64,000 bases of DNA from Polytrichum commune (lineage: Eukaryota > Streptophyta > Polytrichopsida > Polytrichales > Polytrichaceae), in assembly GCA_950295325.1 (NCBI GenBank), contig OX485804.1, forward strand, positions 63,396,533-63,460,532, read 5' to 3'. The notes under the pieces were generated by a model. It was not told where the DNA came from and ran no database searches. It saw nothing but the letters and a program-made list of their open reading frames with translations. A program made the position numbers and the translations under genes. Positions 8,784-30,745 of this stretch are shown piece by piece (position 1 is the first letter of the stretch; the number at the start of each line of letters is the position of its first letter).

Positions 8784-8794
8784 GCCCATTCAAC
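8784..8794 (+). repeat. Target site duplication, left
   Basis: GCCCATTCAAC directly before the left end of the MULE; the identical 11 bases follow its right end. Confidence 0.85.
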
Positions 8795-9928
8795 CCTAAC
8801 ATTACCCAACCCAAAGGAGGTAAATGCTGTGCTGAAATCGAGGCATGGCAGTGGGTCAGCCCCTCGGGGGTCGGGTCCTGGTATGCCTGCAGCAAAGCCT
8901 CTGCTGGCCTGGGCTGTAACGACACTGTGGCACGCCAAGCTGCCCGCGCCAAGCTGCCCGCGCCAGGCTGGCACGTCAAGCTGCCCGTGCCCAACTTCAC
9001 ATCACATCACCTTCCATCATGGCATCCCCATGCCATGAGGACCATGTGGCCCATGGCCGACATCCACCCACCCAGGTAACCTAATCACCCTCGGGGACTG
9101 TGTTTTGGGTTTAGGGTTTGGAAGACCTCCATCCAGCCATGGTTGTTGAATCATTGTAACCTGCACACTCCGGATTTCTGCCGCAATGGACTGTCTTGCA
9201 TGAAGTGATGTGATTGCAACAATGAAGCGCTGAAGGGATCGTAACCATGCCTCTCATTGATCGTAACGTAGGCATTTAGCAAAGACTGTAGATTTCTGCC
9301 AAAATGGACTGTCTTCTATGTACTAGTTGTGCTGCCATTTGTAGTGTTACTAAAGTTACTAAATGTAAATCCAACTTTGCATGGAAAATAAGTAGTCACA
9401 GCAAGCATGTTGGTTTAGGGTTGCTGGTTTAGCTGAAGTTTTTGTGTAAGGGTAAAGAAGAGCATTGTAGAGAAGAGCATTGTAGAGAAGATGATTGAAC
9501 ATTGGTGTTTATGGTTTATGGTTTAGGGGTTTTTTTTTATGTTGAGTGCAGCCGCACTATATCACATTGTTGTGGCTTGTTCTTTCATCAGAGATCCCAT
9601 CAGAAATGTCAACGCCGTTCTACCAATGTCATTGGCAGTTGTTGTGCCATAAGCCGTTGTCCATGAATTCTTTTGTTGAGTAGGGTTGAAGGTTGCTTAG
9701 CTCCTCTTTAGGGTTTTGAAAGTCGGATGTAAGTGTTCCAGAGCATGTCACTGACTCTTCCTAATTTTTTAGGTGTTTTTGGTTCGGATGTGTTTGTATG
9801 TCCTCTTTGCAATCAGTTGTTCATTGTAATCATCATTGATGCAGGTGTGAGCAGCTATCAGTTGTTCATTGTAATCATCATTGATGCAGGTGTGAGCAGC
9901 TCTAGGCGCAAGTTACGGAAGGCGCATT
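8795..9928 (+). repeat. MULE left terminal inverted repeat
   Basis: It matches the reverse complement of 14935-15959 almost base for base. It is longer than the right arm because of local duplications: an exact 45-bp tandem copy at 9812-9856/9857-9901, extra units of GCCAAGCTGCCCGCGCC near 8935-8985, and a doubled GTAGAGAAGAGCATT near 9465-9488. Open frames in this arm are mirrored in the other arm and look like by-products of GC-rich sequence, not genes. Confidence 0.85.
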
Positions 9929-9970
9929 TCAGTGCGCCCTCAAGCGTTTTCAAGCGAATTTGATGTGCAA

Positions 9971-10138
9971 CCTCTGCAGGTGTGTACGAGTGATCCGCTT
10001 GACCCAACTCTGAGGTTGTTGGTTCGGAGGAGGATTAAGTTAACCTCTCTTCTTCCTCTGCAAGTGTGTACGAGTGATCCGCTTGACCCAACTCTGAGGT
10101 TGTTGGTTCGGAGGAGGATTAAGTTAACCTCTCTTCTT
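9971..10138 (+). repeat. 84-bp tandem duplication inside the MULE
   Basis: Two copies (9971-10054 and 10055-10138) of a unit beginning CCTCTGCA(G/A)GTGTGTACGA, nearly identical. Confidence 0.9.
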
Positions 10139-11600
10139 CGCACATTCAGAGGTTGTCGAGGAAGTGAATGGTACAGGCAATCAGTCATCCTCAGTATATT
10201 TATTTGTGATCCACTATTCTAGTCTTTGAGTAGAGTACTCTTTTATTTCAGGCGAATCTTGAGGCGAAAAGTGAAACCTTCACTGCTCTCAGCCTCACTC
10301 CCTCATGCGTGGCGAGGATTGTAATTGGAAGCATTTTTTTTTCTTCAGTTTTTGTCCTGTTTTTGGGAGCGAAGATTCTTGCGGATTTGATATGAAGTTA
10401 TGTTCCCGTGAATGTAGTGCTCAAGCCACCTTCCCCGCTTAAATGCTGGCAACGGTCTTCCGTGGTACCGCAGTGAATGAAAAAATCGCCAAAGTGGAAG
10501 AAGGAAGGAAAGGAAGAAAGGAGTCTGATTGGATTTGTTTTGTGTGGTGGAATTAAGGCTTTCAAGGATCGACGACTACTGGGAGGGTGTTGAAGTTGTG
10601 AACACCATCGCCATACCCATTTGTTATTCGATCTACCATGCAACGATGACTCTCAAGCACAACAACTACGCAGTCCTTCCAGTGGTATGTCTGAAGGTTT
10701 TTCTTTATTTTCTTTTTTGTAATTTGAGTTCATTCTGGATGACTTTATATGTATTTGCAAATAAGATTGTTGCCCAATATGAATAAAGCATGCCCTTCCT
10801 GCAGGTAAGTACCGTGCGCTTTTGCAGTTCTTGTTAGATGTTTTTGTTGTAGCTCAGATGCGACCTTATGGTCAGCTCACAGACTGGAGGTGGCATTCCA
10901 CATCTGTGCCAAGTTCTTGCAAATTTAACAGTACCTTTGTAGCTGTGCTTCTACAGCAATATGGAGGGTATTTGCTTGTGGAATTACCGTGGCCTTGAAT
11001 GGTTGGTTTGTAAATGGATTTTTGGTTGCAGTTGTTTGAATTAATGTTGATTTCGACAAAATCGTTTAGGTGCAAATTTCAATTCCCGTAAAAAAATGAA
11101 TCAGTGCCATGTAACCAGCGAATGAAGGTAACTTGTCATTACACACACTATACTAAAACAATTACCCATAATTGGGAAAATGAAGCGTTTTTTATCGCAT
11201 TGTTTGCACCCTAACAGCGAAGAGTCCCTGAAATCACTAAGGTGCCCAACTTGGTCTATACACCCTAATGGATCGTTGGTATGGTGGTACGTGCAGTGGT
11301 TGTACGCTATGTTACTGTTTGTAACATGCACAAGTCATATATATCTAGTGACGTTTATTTTTTAAATGTGTAACATGACAACATGCACAATAGAATTCAG
11401 ATAAATGAAAGCTTTGGAAGACACAAAATTGGCATTCACTAGATAATATATCTTAGAATACCTCAAATGATACCCTTCACAAAGAGAAGTCAAGGGCACC
11501 TTTCATAAAGTTTGAAAAAACCTCTATATTTGAAATCCGCTTTCCTCAAAGACCCACGACACATTATTCCCAGCACCATAACTGAGAATAGCAGCCTGTT
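10139..11600. other. MULE interior of unknown origin
   Basis: Sequence without a recognised protein. A plus-strand frame from about 10244, after a splice-acceptor-like TTTATTTCAG, reads without stops for about 40 codons. CCTGCAGGTAAGTACC near 10800 looks like a splice donor. These hint at captured exons, but I cannot assign a gene. Confidence 0.3.
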
Positions 11601-11606
11601 CTTGCT

Positions 11607-12267
11607 CTAGTGCCTCCTCTTGGCCTCGTCATGGTCCATGATGCCGACTGCAGTGGTCAAGACAATGTATCCAAACTGCAATACATACAAAACACCAATC
11701 GCTTAGTCTCCAACATGCCAACAATGCAAAAGCTGCAATCCACTATCTCGCCCATATTGCCTTTTACAATCCTCTCCTAGCAAAGCATTTGTATAATCTA
11801 GTTCTTGATAAAATTGATTTCCTAGAACCATAAAAAAAAAAGACCAGCAAGTGGTTTTTTTGACAGGTTTATCATGGCTACAATGTGATTGTTGAATATT
11901 GAAGTTGGTAGTGAACCTGTCATACGCATCGTCCAATGTGCCTCAAAACACATGCTCTTCACATTGACATATCCTCACCCAAATGCCGGGATACACATTT
12001 TTCGTGAAGTAGACACACTAAACCCCTATACCTCAATTCTTGGCTTTGAGATATTTTACATACATGCTACAAACCGTAAATACGGCTGTCATGACAAGTG
12101 TCACACACCTGACATGAGGGAAGAAGTCGTGCAGTCCACGCTTCCAACTCACTTACGCCGATATTGTAACGAGGGCTGATCACGCCACAATTGTTCAATT
12201 TGTCGTTCAACTGTATGACAATCTTGCCGGCCATGTGGTCATCGACCAACTCGAATTCTCCAATGTA
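11607..12267 (-). pseudogene. Captured fragment of ribosomal protein uS8 (RPS15a) gene
   Basis: Two minus-strand exons encode the C-terminal two thirds of cytosolic-type 40S protein uS8/S15a. Exon A, 12267-12109 (53 codons), begins [15 protein letters not shown] and contains [10 protein letters not shown] and [11 protein letters not shown]. Exon B, 11675-11607, begins [20 protein letters not shown]. Both match the family order (known eukaryotic S15a: [51 protein letters not shown]). The 433-bp intron keeps its CAG/GTGTGT donor and TTGCAG acceptor, so genomic DNA rather than cDNA was captured. It is broken: the first half of the protein is missing, a stop follows ..AKRRH, and the usual C-terminal KNVGGKVLGFFY is not in frame. 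It lies wholly between the MULE ends. It is very unlikely to make ribosomal protein. Confidence 0.88.
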
Positions 12268-12340
12268 ACATGTTGCACACAATATTGTTCCCCTTGAGTG
12301 TTGTAGTTAGGTTTTTAGGTTTGGGTTCATACTCTCAAAA

Positions 12341-14165
12341 AACCCCAGGGAAGACCAAATAAGTGTCAGGTGTAACTTTCCCATCGCAAAGAAAGGGCTT
12401 CACTCTCTCGGGCAGGGATGATTTACACCAGGAAGATTCTTTCTCCAGGGTTCATGCAAAATTCGGCTTCGATGACTCGGCACTCACCAAGTATTTAAAC
12501 TCCCTTCACAGGAATACATCACTCTTGAACCTGCTCTCGCATGAACTACATGGTATCTGAGTTGATGAAGATCTCTCCTTTCTCATGAGATTCAAATTCG
12601 AACCAAATCACGATATTATCCCCTCTTGCTCATTTGAGTTAACTTTATCAAACAGAAAAGACGACGGCAGACTCAACTACCGGGTGGGTTATCGAATCTC
12701 CGTTCACAGTGAAATTACAGAATTCTCTCGTCTGCTTCTCGCAGCATTTATACACTAATAAGAATGGTTTTATTCCCTTCCCAGGAAAGCTCCAGCAGAT
12801 AGATCTCTTATTAATTCTTCAAACAGTTCTTTGAGGGTCATATTAATTAAATGGCTCATGATCTTAATGAGATATCTATCTCTTTGTCTGTCTCGTGATT
12901 CAAAATTCACTCCCTAAGTTCAGTTCACTATTAACGTAACATATTCTCATGTTGTCTCAAGTAGTAATAACGCTGAGAGTCACAAGCCTCTCATATTAAA
13001 CAATAAAAGCATTATGACCTTTCACAGGAAAGATCCAATATATGTAGACATCTCCTCCTTAAATCCAACAGGGTTAAGGGGGATTCACTGATGAGTGAAC
13101 TGCTCGAGATCGAAATGGAATCTCGGTTATTTTACTTAATTCATGACGAACAATTAATTTCCCAACATTAGGCCATGTTGTTATGGTCTATATATTAATT
13201 TGACACAAGAGAAAGTCTCGGTGTAACAAAGATGATGATATATACTCCTTCACAGAGATATATATTTTATTCTTACATTGCACGATCTACTTAGGCTTGG
13301 TTTGAATAAATGTGACTCCCTTCTCAGGATATTCACACTCCAATGAGAACTTTAAGATTTCTTCCTCTCACTTAATTGAAAAAACTTTCCTCAGTCAAGG
13401 AGTTAGATTTCATAAGCTAACCCCGGACTGGAGATCTAATTTCCTTTCACAGGAAATTCCTGGTGTCTACACTCAGACACAAATTCAATCATAATCCATG
13501 CAATCTCTTACACTTCAAGTTCTCACTCTCTTCCCGAGAGTATCATTTATTATTTATCTTATGGTATTCTCAAGGATTACTTGCGTAATTACCCACAGTG
13601 GAACTTCACATTCCACTTGTGAGGGTGACTGAGAGTTTCTCACTCTCCTATTCGTCACTGACTCCTTCACAAGAAGTTGAAGTCACACAACTAATCCTTA
13701 CTCCCTTCACAAGAGTAGGATAAAATGAATTTCCTCTTAACTTACTCCGAATTGGGGACATTCACTGTCTCCACATTGACTGTAACTTTTCTTAGAACCT
13801 TAAGACACTGTCCATATAACTCCATATAAGACTGTTCACAATCCACGCATAAAACACATGTGATTCAATTCAAGAGTTTCACACTCCTGAATCACAACTC
13901 CACATTAACAACAACACTCCCACTTCCATAGTGGTAACAACTCTAGGACATCCACACACCGATCCAATCACAAGACTTTCAATTTCACATTCACAACTTA
14001 AAGAAGGATTTAATAATGGCACTTTGTATTGATATAAAAAGAGACTGTACACATAAAATTAAGGGCTTCACACCCTGGGAGTTGAGGAATTCACTCTCTT
14101 CACGAGAGGAAGATCAAAATTACAATGCCCCCTTGTCTTCTCCTTCCTTCATTTTATCCTTCTAT
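12341..14165 (+). repeat. Hairpin-rich repeat, copy 2 (inside the MULE)
   Basis: A 1.8-kb relative of 5947-8060: same start (AGGGAAGACCAAATAAGTGT) and same end (GGGCTTCACACCC followed by CTCTCTTCACGAGAGGAAG). It contains many short arms around a TTCAC-type loop: GTGGAA-CTTCACA-TTCCAC near 13610, GAGAG-TTTCTCA-CTCTC near 13632, TATATACTCCTTCACAGAGATATATA near 13238, and ACTCCCTTCACAAGAGT near 13700. It adjoins the truncated 5' side of the uS8 fragment. No coding frame of note. Family unknown. Confidence 0.6.
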
Positions 14166-14592
14166 CCTCAAAAGGTGGTGACTGTCTGCAACTAGGATTC
14201 CAAGTGCTACTTCTAATTGTCACATGTGAATTCCATGCCCCCTCATATCCTTCTAAACTCTGGGTAGCAAAGGAAATTCTTCTTCCCTAGCCTGTTTCCA
14301 TTTCGGAGTGACTAAGTGTCTAATACTTCACTATTTCACTAGTCTTGAGTAAAATTTGACATTCATTTACATCTCAAAACTAAAACTTAAGCATTCAGAC
14401 CAAAAGATGGTACCACAAGTGTTGAGGAAATTTACATCGATTGTAATTCGCTTATTTCATATACAAAGCAGAAGACCAAATGAGTTGCATTGACCACTGT
14501 CTGCAAGCATTGACAGGATGTCTTGAACAACGTCCTTCATCTCATGATAGCAAAGGTGCGTCCACTTTTCTCGAAGTACAAAAAAAAATCTG

Positions 14593-15075
14593 CATTGACA
14601 AGAATGCGCCTCACGCTTGAGGGCGCACTGAAATGCGCCTTCCGTAATTTCCGCCTAGAGCTACTCACACCTGCATCAATGGTGATTACCATGAACAACT
14701 GATTCAAAAGAGGACATACAGACATATCTGAACCGAAAACACCTAAAAAATTAGGCAACACTGACAGGAATGTGCCTCACGCTTGAGGGCGCACTGAAAT
14801 GCGCCTTCCGTAACTTGCACCTAGAGCTGATCACACCTGCATTTATGATGATTACAATGAACAACTGGTTCAAAAGAGGACATACAGACACATCTGAACC
14901 GAAAACATCTAAAAAATTGGGCAGCATTGACAAGAATGCGCCTTCCGTAACTTGCGCCTAGAGCTGCTCACACCTGCATCAATGATGATTACAATGAACA
15001 ACTGATTGCAAAGAGGACATACAGACACATCCGAACCAAAAACACCTAAAAAATTAGGAAGAGTCAGTGACATGC
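14593..15075 (-). repeat. Three tandem copies of the inner MULE-arm segment
   Basis: Units start near 14593, 14758 and 14925 (period about 166 bp) and contain CTCACACCTGCAT and CATCTGAACC-type words. The third unit overlaps the right terminal inverted repeat and lacks about 28 bp. So the right arm was extended inward by tandem duplication. Confidence 0.85.
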
Positions 15076-15959
15076 TCTGGAACACCCACATCCGACTTTC
15101 AAAACCCTAAAGAAGAGCTAAGCAACCTTCAACCCTACTCAACAAAAGAATTCATGGACAACGGCTTATGGCACAACAACTGCCAATGACATTGGTAGAA
15201 CGGCGTTGACATTTCTGATGGGATCTTTGATGAAAGAACAAGCCACAACAATGTGATATAGTGCGGCCGCACTCAACATAAAAAAAACCCCTAAACCATA
15301 AACACCAATGTTCAATCATCTTCTCTACAATGCTCTTCTTTACCCTTACACAAAAACTTCAGCTAAACCAGCAACCCTAAACCAACATGCTTGCTGTGAC
15401 TACTTATTTTCCATGCAAAGTTGGATTTACATTTAGTAACTTTAGTAACACTACAAATGGCAGCACAACTAGTACATAGAAGACAGTCCATTTTGGCAGA
15501 AATCTACAGTCTTTGCTAAATGCCTACGTTACGATCAATGAGAGGCATGGTTACGATCCCTTCAATGCTTCATTGTTGCAATTGCATCACTTCATGCAAG
15601 ACCGTCCATTGCGGCAGAAATCCGGAGTGTGCAGGTTACAATGATTCAGCAACCATGGCTGGATGGAGATCTTCCAAACCCTAAACCCAAAACACAATCC
15701 CCGAGGGTGATTAGGTTACCTGGGTGGGTGGATGTCGGCCATGGGCCACATGGTCCTCATGGCATGGGGATGCCATGATGGAAGGTGATGTGATGTGAAG
15801 TTGGGCACGGGCAGCTTGGCGTGCCACAGTGTCGTTACAGCCCAGGCCAGCAGAGGCTTTGCTGCAGGCAGACCAGGACCCGACCCCCGAGGGGCTGACC
15901 CACTGCCATGCCTCGATTTCAGCACAACATTTACCTCCTTTGGGCTGGGTAATGTTAGG
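14935..15959 (-). repeat. MULE right terminal inverted repeat
   Basis: Reverse complement of 8795-9928, lacking the small internal duplications of that arm. It ends TGGGTAATGTTAGG. Confidence 0.85.
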
Positions 15960-15970
15960 GCCCATTCAAC
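15960..15970 (+). repeat. Target site duplication, right
   Basis: GCCCATTCAAC, identical to 8784-8794. Confidence 0.85.
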
Positions 15971-19205: not shown

Positions 19206-20004
19206 ATGTGCAACTCTAAATATCATAATTCAAATATTTTATCACTCAAAGAAGTTACTTATGTTGACGAATGGAATCATATTGATAATTAGCATGTATG
19301 ACACCTTGAGACGGGGGATGTTAAGTTTCCCCCCCTCCCCCACGAACTTTTCGGGGGAGGAATATTCAGGTAGGGGCAACTGTTCGTCGGATTTTTTGGA
19401 CCCGACTGAAAATTGTTGCCCACCTGCCCGACTTCGAAAAAATCATTGTCCTTGCATTCTCGAAGGCCACTTATCCACAAATCCCATATTGAGTGCACTT
19501 CATCTTCAAGGAATTTGGAATCATTAATTTTCGTTCCATTTCAAGATGACAAAGTCCCTTTCAATGGTAAGTCACGAAAATTATAACCTTAGTGCTAATG
19601 AGGATTTTGTAATATTTTTGACTTCCAAGTTAATTACATGCTTTATTGGCGGTTTCACTTTGAAAATGAAATCCAAGTCAATTGCTTACTTACTCAATGG
19701 AAGTGAACATATATATTGGATTTGGGACCTTGAAGATGAAGTGCACTCAATATGGGATTTGTGGATAAGTGACCTTCAAGAATGCAAGAACAATGGTTTT
19801 TTCGAAGTCGGGCGGACGGGCAACAATTTTCGGTCGGGTCCAGAAAATCCGACGGGCGGTTGCCCCTGCCCGAATATTCCTCCCCCGAAAAGTTCGGGGG
19901 GGGGGGGACGGGGGACTTAATATACCCCCTTGAGACCTCTAGGCATCTAGTTTAGACCCTTTGCAAATAGTGTACGTGACACCAAATACCATAAATAGTG
20001 TAGC
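19206..20004. repeat. MITE interrupted by a foldback element
   Basis: The two outer parts (19206-19311 and 19928-20004) align in order with the uninterrupted copy at 24-185. Everything between is the insertion described at 19312-19927. Confidence 0.7.
19312..19927. mobile_element. Foldback element with arms of about 200 bp, hAT-like duplication
   Basis: Arms 19312-19512 and 19725-19927 are inverted copies of each other: the words CCCCCGAAAAGTTCG, GAATATTC, TTGGACC and CACTCAATATGGGATTTGTG recur reversed. It is flanked by CCTTGAGA on both sides (19304-19311 and 19928-19935), an 8-bp duplication as made by hAT transposases. Comparison with 24-185 confirms the insertion point. The 124-codon frame inside it is arm sequence, not a gene. 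A diverged relative lies at 54500-54876. Confidence 0.75.
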
Positions 20005-24479: not shown

Positions 24480-25285
24480 GGGTCTATTCACAATTGGGGT
24501 ACTACTTTTGGGACAAAGGAACTAAGGACTATGTCGCATTGGATCTCGACGTTTATTATGATTTATTATGATTTAATTCATAAATTTTAAATAGAGAAGT
24601 AGATAGGTCATAGGATTTATCAATAAATATATTATTTGTTATTAAATAATAACCAATATTAGATAAATCCTTTATGAAATGAGTAGACATGTCATAGGAC
24701 TTGTAGAGAGGTCATGAGACTTGTTTGGGCCACGTTGCTAGCAATTTCATTATTGAAGTGTACATTGGAGGTAAATTATTTATTGTTTTCCATCCTAGTA
24801 CCTTGGTGTAAGTGTCATGTGTTGATACATATATTTCCTTGTGTCCAATTCTATTTCTAAATGTTCCTTTTTCATGTAGCCATGTTATTATATAATGTGG
24901 CCCATGTTTGGTTTCATACATAAAGCTATACAATGGGTATGCAATACATCCTTAGTTCTATTGGTACATAATTGAACGATAAGTGTGAGGAAGAAAATTG
25001 GGATTGTTTCAAGTAATTTTTGTTGTTCTTTTCATTCCTTAATCCTAAGGTCAACATTTCTGACAGCAACCATAGATGTCCGTTAAGGAGTCAAAATGAT
25101 ATCTTAGATAACCCTATTCCTTGTAAATTAACTTTGTCGGTGGGCTCATTATGGAATATTAAATGTAGGTATGATCCAAAATATGCTTCACAATACAAAT
25201 CTAAGCACACCAACTATGCAAAGTCATCTACTTTAGTTCTTTAACTGTTAGACACTCATTCTTGGTACCCCAATCGTGAATGCCC
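24480..25285. mobile_element. TIR element with GGGCATTCA…TTGGGGTAC ends, copy 1
   Basis: Left end GGTCTATTCACAATTGGGGT and right end ACCCCAATCGTGAATGCCC. An inverted sister lies at 44332-45095. Internal landmarks shared by both are CGTTTATTATGATTTA, an AT-rich tract with TTATTAAATAATAA, and CATAGATGTCCGTTAAGGA or its relative. About 806 bp, no transposase seen. Confidence 0.65.
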
Positions 25286-30332: not shown

Positions 30333-30745
30333 AGCTTCCAATTTCCTTCTTGCACATCACCTTAGAGAAGACTTGCTAGTAGGAAATGTTATGCTATAGA
30401 GCTACTACTAAGTGTAACATATGCGGATTGAGCTCGCTTCCATTTTCCTTCCCACACATCACCTCAAAGAGGACTTGCTAGTAGGAAAGGTAATGCTCAA
30501 AGAGTTGCTACTAAGTGCAACCTACACAAATTAAGCTTGCTTCCAATTTCCTTCATGCACATCACCCTGTAGAGGACATGCTAGTAGGAAATGTAATGCT
30601 CAATGAGGTGCTACTAAATGTAACCTACATGGATTAAACTCACTTCCAGTTTCCTTCCCCCACATCACCTTGGAGAGGACTTGCTAGTAGGAAATGTAAT
30701 GCTCAATTAGTTGCTATGAAGTGCAACCTACATGGAGTCAATCAA
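30333..30745. repeat. 103-bp tandem array, four units
   Basis: Units begin GCTTCCA(A/T)TTTCCTTC at 30333, 30436, 30539 and (CACTTCCAG variant) 30642. Each contains CACATCACC, GACTTGCTAGTAGGAAA and CTACTAAGTG. Confidence 0.9.

Follow-up and report, generated by a model that had tools for sequence, protein, structure and literature searches.

A transposase-less Mutator-like element of Polytrichum commune whose right arm appears to have been copied, inverted, onto its left

We analyzed a 64,000-nucleotide stretch of Polytrichum commune DNA (assembly GCA_950295325.1, contig OX485804.1, forward strand, positions 63,396,533–63,460,532; hereafter the window), in which positions 8794–15960 hold a transposable element that we call W. 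Our results indicate that W is very probably a non-autonomous Mutator-like element (MULE) carrying host gene fragments, that is, a Pack-MULE, and that its left arm was probably overwritten with right-arm sequence in inverted orientation. In kind W is ordinary, being devoid of transposase and having picked up pieces of host genes. Its identity is supported by a family terminus, a 9-bp target site duplication (TSD), matches of its interior to three other loci, a small remnant related to transposase-bearing elements, and siblings that carry parts of its captures and lie in other TSDs. An earlier note had read the interval as a Pack-MULE, and this reading is upheld by the family termini, the siblings' 9-bp TSDs, the same-terminus relatives that bear transposase and an intron-bearing capture with its donor.

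Ends, target site duplication and family of W

The element spans 7,167 bp, has the ends CCCTAACATT...AATGTTAGGG and is flanked by the following repeats:

8785–8793, no strand: left 9-bp TSD CCCATTCAA, its limit fixed by 36 of 36 family ends
15961–15969, no strand: right 9-bp TSD CCCATTCAA

The 11-base string GCCCATTCAAC stands at both 8784–8794 and 15960–15970, which the earlier note had taken for a perfect duplication of 11 bp rather than 9 bp. Using the outermost 166 bases of W as query, we searched the organism's own genome assembly (407.8 Mb; 64 contigs, of which seven are large) and obtained 37 matches, which yield 15 paired elements (W and 14 others that were fetched) and five single ends, or 20 loci with 36 ends; siblings and relatives are named below by contig and megabase position, as in C3_31.05. 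A C precedes CCTAACATT in all 36 ends, and the next base outward is variable (G in 12, A in ten, C in ten and T in four). Because the C is constant while its outer neighbor varies, we count it as a base of the element. At W, the left TSD is preceded by a G, which is also the last base of the element, and the right TSD is followed by a C, which is also its first base, so the 9-bp duplication looks 11 bp long because one element base on each side matches by chance. The TSD of W is identical at nine of nine positions, and perfect 9-bp TSDs, every one different in sequence, flank 12 of the 15 paired elements; the imperfect three are C3_56.3 (a 10-bp identical string), C1_65.7 (seven of nine) and C4_6.8 (none clear). 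On the evidence of the 36 ends and the 12 perfect TSDs, the target duplication of W is 9 bp, the usual length within the 8–11 bp range of MULEs, and the 11-bp claim fails. The element as delimited before is real, with each limit now one base beyond the earlier 8795–15959.

A 24-base terminus pattern, allowing at most two mismatches, occurs at 278 places in the genome, compared with one for the reversed control, so the earlier note's condition for refutation, a lack of further copies of the ends, does not hold. Pairing neighboring plus and minus termini within 70 kb, from the 100 of these 278 matches that were listed, gave 33 pairs. A genome search for the MULE transposase domain PF10551 returned 142 hits (150 of 271 candidates scored), and 19 of the 33 pairs enclose such a hit, with ~0.2 expected at random. 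We read four relatives over their full length (C2_24.7, C1_2.1, C2_44.9 and C3_26.4), each covering 99–100% of the transposase queries; all four relatives that were fetched for the second arm type encode the MULE domain, two of them with a stop in the matched stretch. The arms of W match the four transposase-bearing relatives at 80–86% over their outer 51–61 bases, with a weaker stretch (66–80%) at about 9000–9240. Within W, we found no PF10551 hit among those listed, no stop-to-stop open reading frame (ORF) of at least 180 amino acids and, by tblastn, nothing that matches the transposase of the relatives, in keeping with the earlier description of an interior without transposase. The 9-bp TSD, the inverted arms of ~1.1 kb and PF10551 in same-terminus relatives mark W as a MULE; the lack of a transposase gene, the host fragments traceable to donors and the retained introns mark it as a Pack-MULE.

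Besides the transposase gene, the four transposase-bearing relatives contain another gene in convergent orientation to it, comprising three exon-like stretches and broken in some copies; we refer to this accessory gene as ACC. We read whole or nearly whole 12 elements with W-type arms (11 from among the 15 paired elements, together with C6_26.6, which is without its outer right end), and none of the 12 has a transposase match. ACC is kept wholly or partly in seven (C3_56.3, C1_65.7, C3_31.69, C1_42.8, C5_15.2, C1_31.9 and C6_26.6) and is gone from five (W, C3_31.05, C1_3.6, C4_6.8 and C6_27.3). A trace of the autonomous ancestry persists in W:

10970–11402, plus strand: remnant of the ancestral MULE, with matches to autonomous relatives at 11154–11283 and 11331–11402

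The first match lies downstream of the transposase gene in the relatives and the second at its 5′ start, both at 74–81%; three of the four autonomous relatives match both pieces, and C3_26.4 matches the first only. These matches suggest that W descends from an element of the autonomous type and lost the body of the transposase gene between the two pieces. The transposase of relatives sharing the end of W would then have moved it in trans, as the shared end suggests.

Captured host DNA and the nested repeat

The interior of W is composed largely of the following pieces:

9981–10650, plus strand: captured C2 piece (donor C2:34958999–34959583; 10065–10650 at 96.6%)
10648–10972, plus strand: captured C1 piece (donor C1:19461041–19461622; 88% and 95%)
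11404–12301, minus strand: captured RPS15A/uS8 piece (donor C4:26.43 Mb; 90–91.5%; exon limits read by eye)
12297–12301, no strand: left 5-bp TSD AGTGT of the nested repeat
12302–14417, plus strand: nested repeat of 2,116 bp, TGTAG...CCACA, which reads as a solo long terminal repeat (LTR) within the RPS15A piece
14418–14422, no strand: right 5-bp TSD AGTGT of the nested repeat
14418–14594, minus strand: remainder of the RPS15A capture (89.5% to the donor)

The ribosomal gene piece seen by the earlier note derives from RPS15A/uS8, with the best Protein Data Bank (PDB) match of its first exon piece being to S22/S15a chains (E = 3.4e-15). Together, 11404–12301 and 14418–14594 match C4:26.43 Mb at 89.5–91.5%, where the donor has three RPS15A exons that are open where read and a complete carboxy end. 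W retains two exon pieces (11607–11675 and ~12109–12270), together with intron sequence; the second piece reads FGYIVLTT...RRH-stop, the start exon is absent, and the last residues are missing. Pack-MULEs often keep the introns of the genes they capture. In W, intron sequence aligns with the C4 donor across 11615–12303 and 14418–14594, indicating capture at the DNA level. Other RPS15A-like loci are more distant: two match the piece at only 70%, and the neighborhood of C4:29.86 Mb gives further short matches, at 80%.

The C1 piece is probably the 3′ part of an EngB-type GTPase gene, because ORFs of this type lie upstream at the donor (PF01926, E = 1.7e-9; EngB chains, E = 1.7e-7); they are at least 1.5 kb away, and we infer that they and the piece belong to one gene. 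The last-exon-like piece itself has only insignificant PDB matches (IF-2, E = 0.31). At the C2 donor (34.96 Mb), no gene could be named; the start of this donor is matched again by 9981–10055, through an 84-bp tandem duplication (9971–10054/10055–10138). A 236-bp internal deletion in the C1 piece at 10868–10870 has ATG microhomology, and further deletion junctions have ATT (10970–10972) and a single base (the siblings' 11512/12162 deletion). Parts of these captures also occur in C3_31.05, C3_31.69, C3_56.3, C6_26.6 and C1_42.8, and the RPS15A-to-arm junction is identical in C3_31.05; because of this sharing, the captures appear to predate the spread of the elements. Host DNA would have been copied in during the repair of breaks inside the element, and the internal deletions, with their 1–3 bp of microhomology, would have come after the captures.

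The second repeat family reported earlier is present as the nested repeat, which reads as a putative solo LTR inserted after the RPS15A capture; its uninterrupted site, CCTTGAGTGTTGAGG, is found in C3_31.05, C6_26.6 and the C4 donor locus. A genome search with this repeat gave 59 rows (40 of 977 candidates scored), of which two start at its first base (query position 13) and 17 end at its last base (query position 2128). A retrotransposon would have entered the captured gene piece and then shrunk to a solo LTR. Two copies of the same family in the same direction, C5:43166790–43169154 and C5:43196060–43198424, lie 29 kb apart with equal scores and may be an LTR pair or a duplicated block.

Origin of the left arm

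The arms of W and the inner junction of the left one are as follows:

8794–9947, plus strand: left arm (terminal inverted repeat, TIR), of the long type that siblings have on the RPS15A side, with a 45-bp tandem duplication (9809–9853/9854–9898)
9948–9980, plus strand: junction of the copied arm with sequence shared with siblings (shared from ~9954), with filler-like TTTCAAGCG
14592–15960, minus strand: right arm (TIR), in which a 166-bp unit recurs as partial tandem copies (14580–14745, 14746–14911 and 14883–15048)

Alignment of 8794–9928 with 14935–15960 gave 1,008 matches and 18 mismatches, 15 of them transitions (98.25% identity). The 109 gap columns are without exception due to additional sequence in the left arm, at least partly tandem copies; the earlier note had called the arms nearly identical once small tandem duplications are allowed for. 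The left arm extends to ~9947, and the right arm is longer, with its 166-bp unit repeated. Tandem units are 45 and 166 bp, and the arm is mostly non-repetitive.

Four siblings (C3_31.05, C3_31.69, C3_56.3 and C6_26.6) have a shorter arm type beside the C2 piece, ending in a common inner sequence. In the same place W has the long arm type, as its siblings have on the RPS15A side. We defined 111 diagnostic columns by agreement of at least three of four references on each side, the right-side set including the right arm of W itself, and the left arm of W agrees with the right side in all 30 substitution columns and in 68 of the 81 indel columns. Moreover, when set against the long arms of siblings, five in number, the arms of W have eight private variants in common, spread over positions 102–965 of 974 ungapped columns; the two arms of C1_42.8 share six, and any other pair at most two. 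The two arms of W group together in the tree with a support of 0.995 (0.980 for the inner part). The best reading of these sequence comparisons is that the left arm is a copy of W's own right arm, made in the lineage of W. An inverted copy of the right arm would have overwritten the left one, by gap repair or by arm-to-arm conversion. If the left arm was copied from the right, arm identity dates the copying and not the insertion.

Several observations weigh against the reading of W as a Pack-MULE with a copied left arm. Twelve of the 81 indel columns in the left arm are left-type and one is neither, so the outer left arm may be a mosaic. Of the 30 substitution columns, 23 fall where the sibling arms hold other sequence and therefore show arm type rather than independent point changes; the remaining seven are homologous, and three left references decide them, C3_56.3 being interrupted there. 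The presence of W's own right arm in the right-side reference set is a further weakness, and between 301 and 613 the left arm is 97.8% identical to a C1_42.8 arm versus 97.4% to the right arm of W. Within the family, 14 of the 33 terminus pairs enclose no listed transposase hit, and three of the 33, including two of the 19 with a hit, span more than 50 kb and could each comprise more than one element. The joined 300-base flanks of W match only their own two places, so no empty site was found in this assembly. A Pfam search did not recognize the RPS15A exon of W, and microhomology (1–3 bp) was examined at deletion junctions and is not established for the captures. Finally, both mobilization in trans and the repair mechanism are steps that we infer.

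Alternatively, both long arms of W could be ancestral, or could have been acquired by recombination with an element having two such arms, with the siblings having lost theirs. A parallel is C1_42.8 (C1:42837412–42852626), a 15.2-kb element with arms of ~5 kb, a 3,886-bp inverted self-match at 98.7% and ACC in both halves, which by its sequence is a near-palindromic MULE. Like W it has two long similar arms, and at 301–613 it matches the left arm of W no less closely than the right arm of W does, but within its copied half it keeps what appears to be a cut-down shorter arm and, next to this, the beginning of the C2 piece. Sibling arms are mostly 96–98% alike over the outer 380 bp, as inheritance would allow; the shorter left-arm type and its inner sequence are nevertheless common to four siblings, and eight private variants are common to the two arms of W. 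We consider inheritance unlikely.

Rather less probable is a recent insertion with an 11-bp target duplication, for which arm identity would serve as a clock. The identical 11-base strings and the 98.25% arm identity agree with it, but all 36 family ends put the C at the outer edge, so that the excess over 9 bp amounts to one base per side. The left arm is of the other type in four siblings, the arms of W share private variants, and the right arm differs by ~3–4% from the nearest sibling arms over the outer 380 bases. Arm identity does not support the earlier description of W as recent, because the right arm seems to have been copied secondarily to the left side. It is very improbable that W belongs to a different superfamily, such as Foldback or hAT, or that it is simply an inverted duplication, for example a palindromic segmental one. 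Its long arms, which contain some tandem repeats, give W a Foldback-like look, and the nematode Tm1 is described as both Mutator and Foldback in an excerpt of PMC3169594, but the 9-bp TSDs do not fit hAT, which has a TSD of 8 nt (excerpt of PMC8903248), the same-terminus relatives encode the PF10551 MULE domain rather than a hAT transposase, and a simple segmental duplication does not fit the TSDs and dispersed siblings.

Relatives, known systems and implications

A genome search with ACC (query L016:1992–3524) gave 95 match rows, itself included. Its protein has no Pfam family, the best match being an insignificant one to HSA (E = 0.012). The ratio of nonsynonymous to synonymous substitution rates (dN/dS) is 0.17–0.29 between transposase-less and autonomous copies, which speaks for long-term purifying selection on the predicted gene. 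It is 0.42–1.02 among transposase-less copies and 0.49–0.76 among the four autonomous copies; these within-group ranges overlap, so short-distance values do not separate the two groups, and values using the second ACC copy of C1_42.8 are probably inflated by a non-homologous start. The transposase-bearing C2_44.9 (C2:44901263–44912105) has two right ends 113 bp apart, with a 9-bp TSD, ATCACCAAC, that fits the outer one; this arrangement identifies it, at the sequence level, as a tandem-TIR MULE.

Elsewhere in the window, 19332–19907 is a compact inverted repeat resembling a miniature inverted-repeat transposable element, with 180-nt arms that are 91% complementary and 216 nt between them. A 627-nt inverted pair (24530–25156/44462–45088; 88%), 19 kb apart, is continued by a 142-nt pair at 25155–25296/44321–44462. 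Three head-to-tail copies with 103-bp spacing occupy 30399–30732, the second and third being 81–84% like the first.

The following comparisons draw on excerpts of the cited papers. Angiosperm Pack-MULEs have TSDs of 9–11 bp and arms typically of 100–500 bp (PMC3310237), and their captures sometimes come from several genes (PMC9168764). W resembles them in being non-autonomous, with long arms, a TSD in the 9–11-bp range and captured gene fragments (PMC3310237, PMC8903248 and PMC9168764); it differs in having arms longer than 1 kb, siblings that retain relics of a two-gene MULE, and a putative nested solo LTR. In tandem or multiple-TIR MULEs (PMC3310237) the end sequence is duplicated, as in C2_44.9, whereas W repeats inner pieces of the arm rather than whole ends, and the arm itself was apparently copied across. 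Like the animal Pack-TIR elements attributed to gap filling or template switching (PMC8277862), W has fillers from other chromosomes; those elements show short microhomology at their breakpoints, which in W is seen at deletion junctions and is not established for captures, and they differ from W in that it is a plant MULE whose siblings reveal the order of events. The second gene of the four autonomous relatives, convergent with the transposase, recalls the opposite-strand ORF of the cereal Abermu MULEs (PMC9168764) and the two genes of MuDR, mudrA and mudrB (PMC6446971), a likeness in gene arrangement; in contrast to Abermu and MuDR, the second protein here is without a Pfam family.

The birth of a Pack-MULE can rarely be read step by step. 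For W, the steps can be placed in order from its siblings, its donors and the site of the nested repeat in its uninterrupted form: transposase loss would have come first, followed by the captures, the internal deletions, the copying of the arm and the insertion of the nested repeat. The likeness of two ends is easily taken for youth; in W it need not be. It is quite possible, if somewhat short of probable, that in this MULE lineage arms grow or are renewed by copying of one half onto the other (1.1 kb in W and ~5 kb, with ACC, in C1_42.8) and that carriers of the accessory gene are driven by the transposase of others. If so, TIR identity would be no clock for such half-copying elements.

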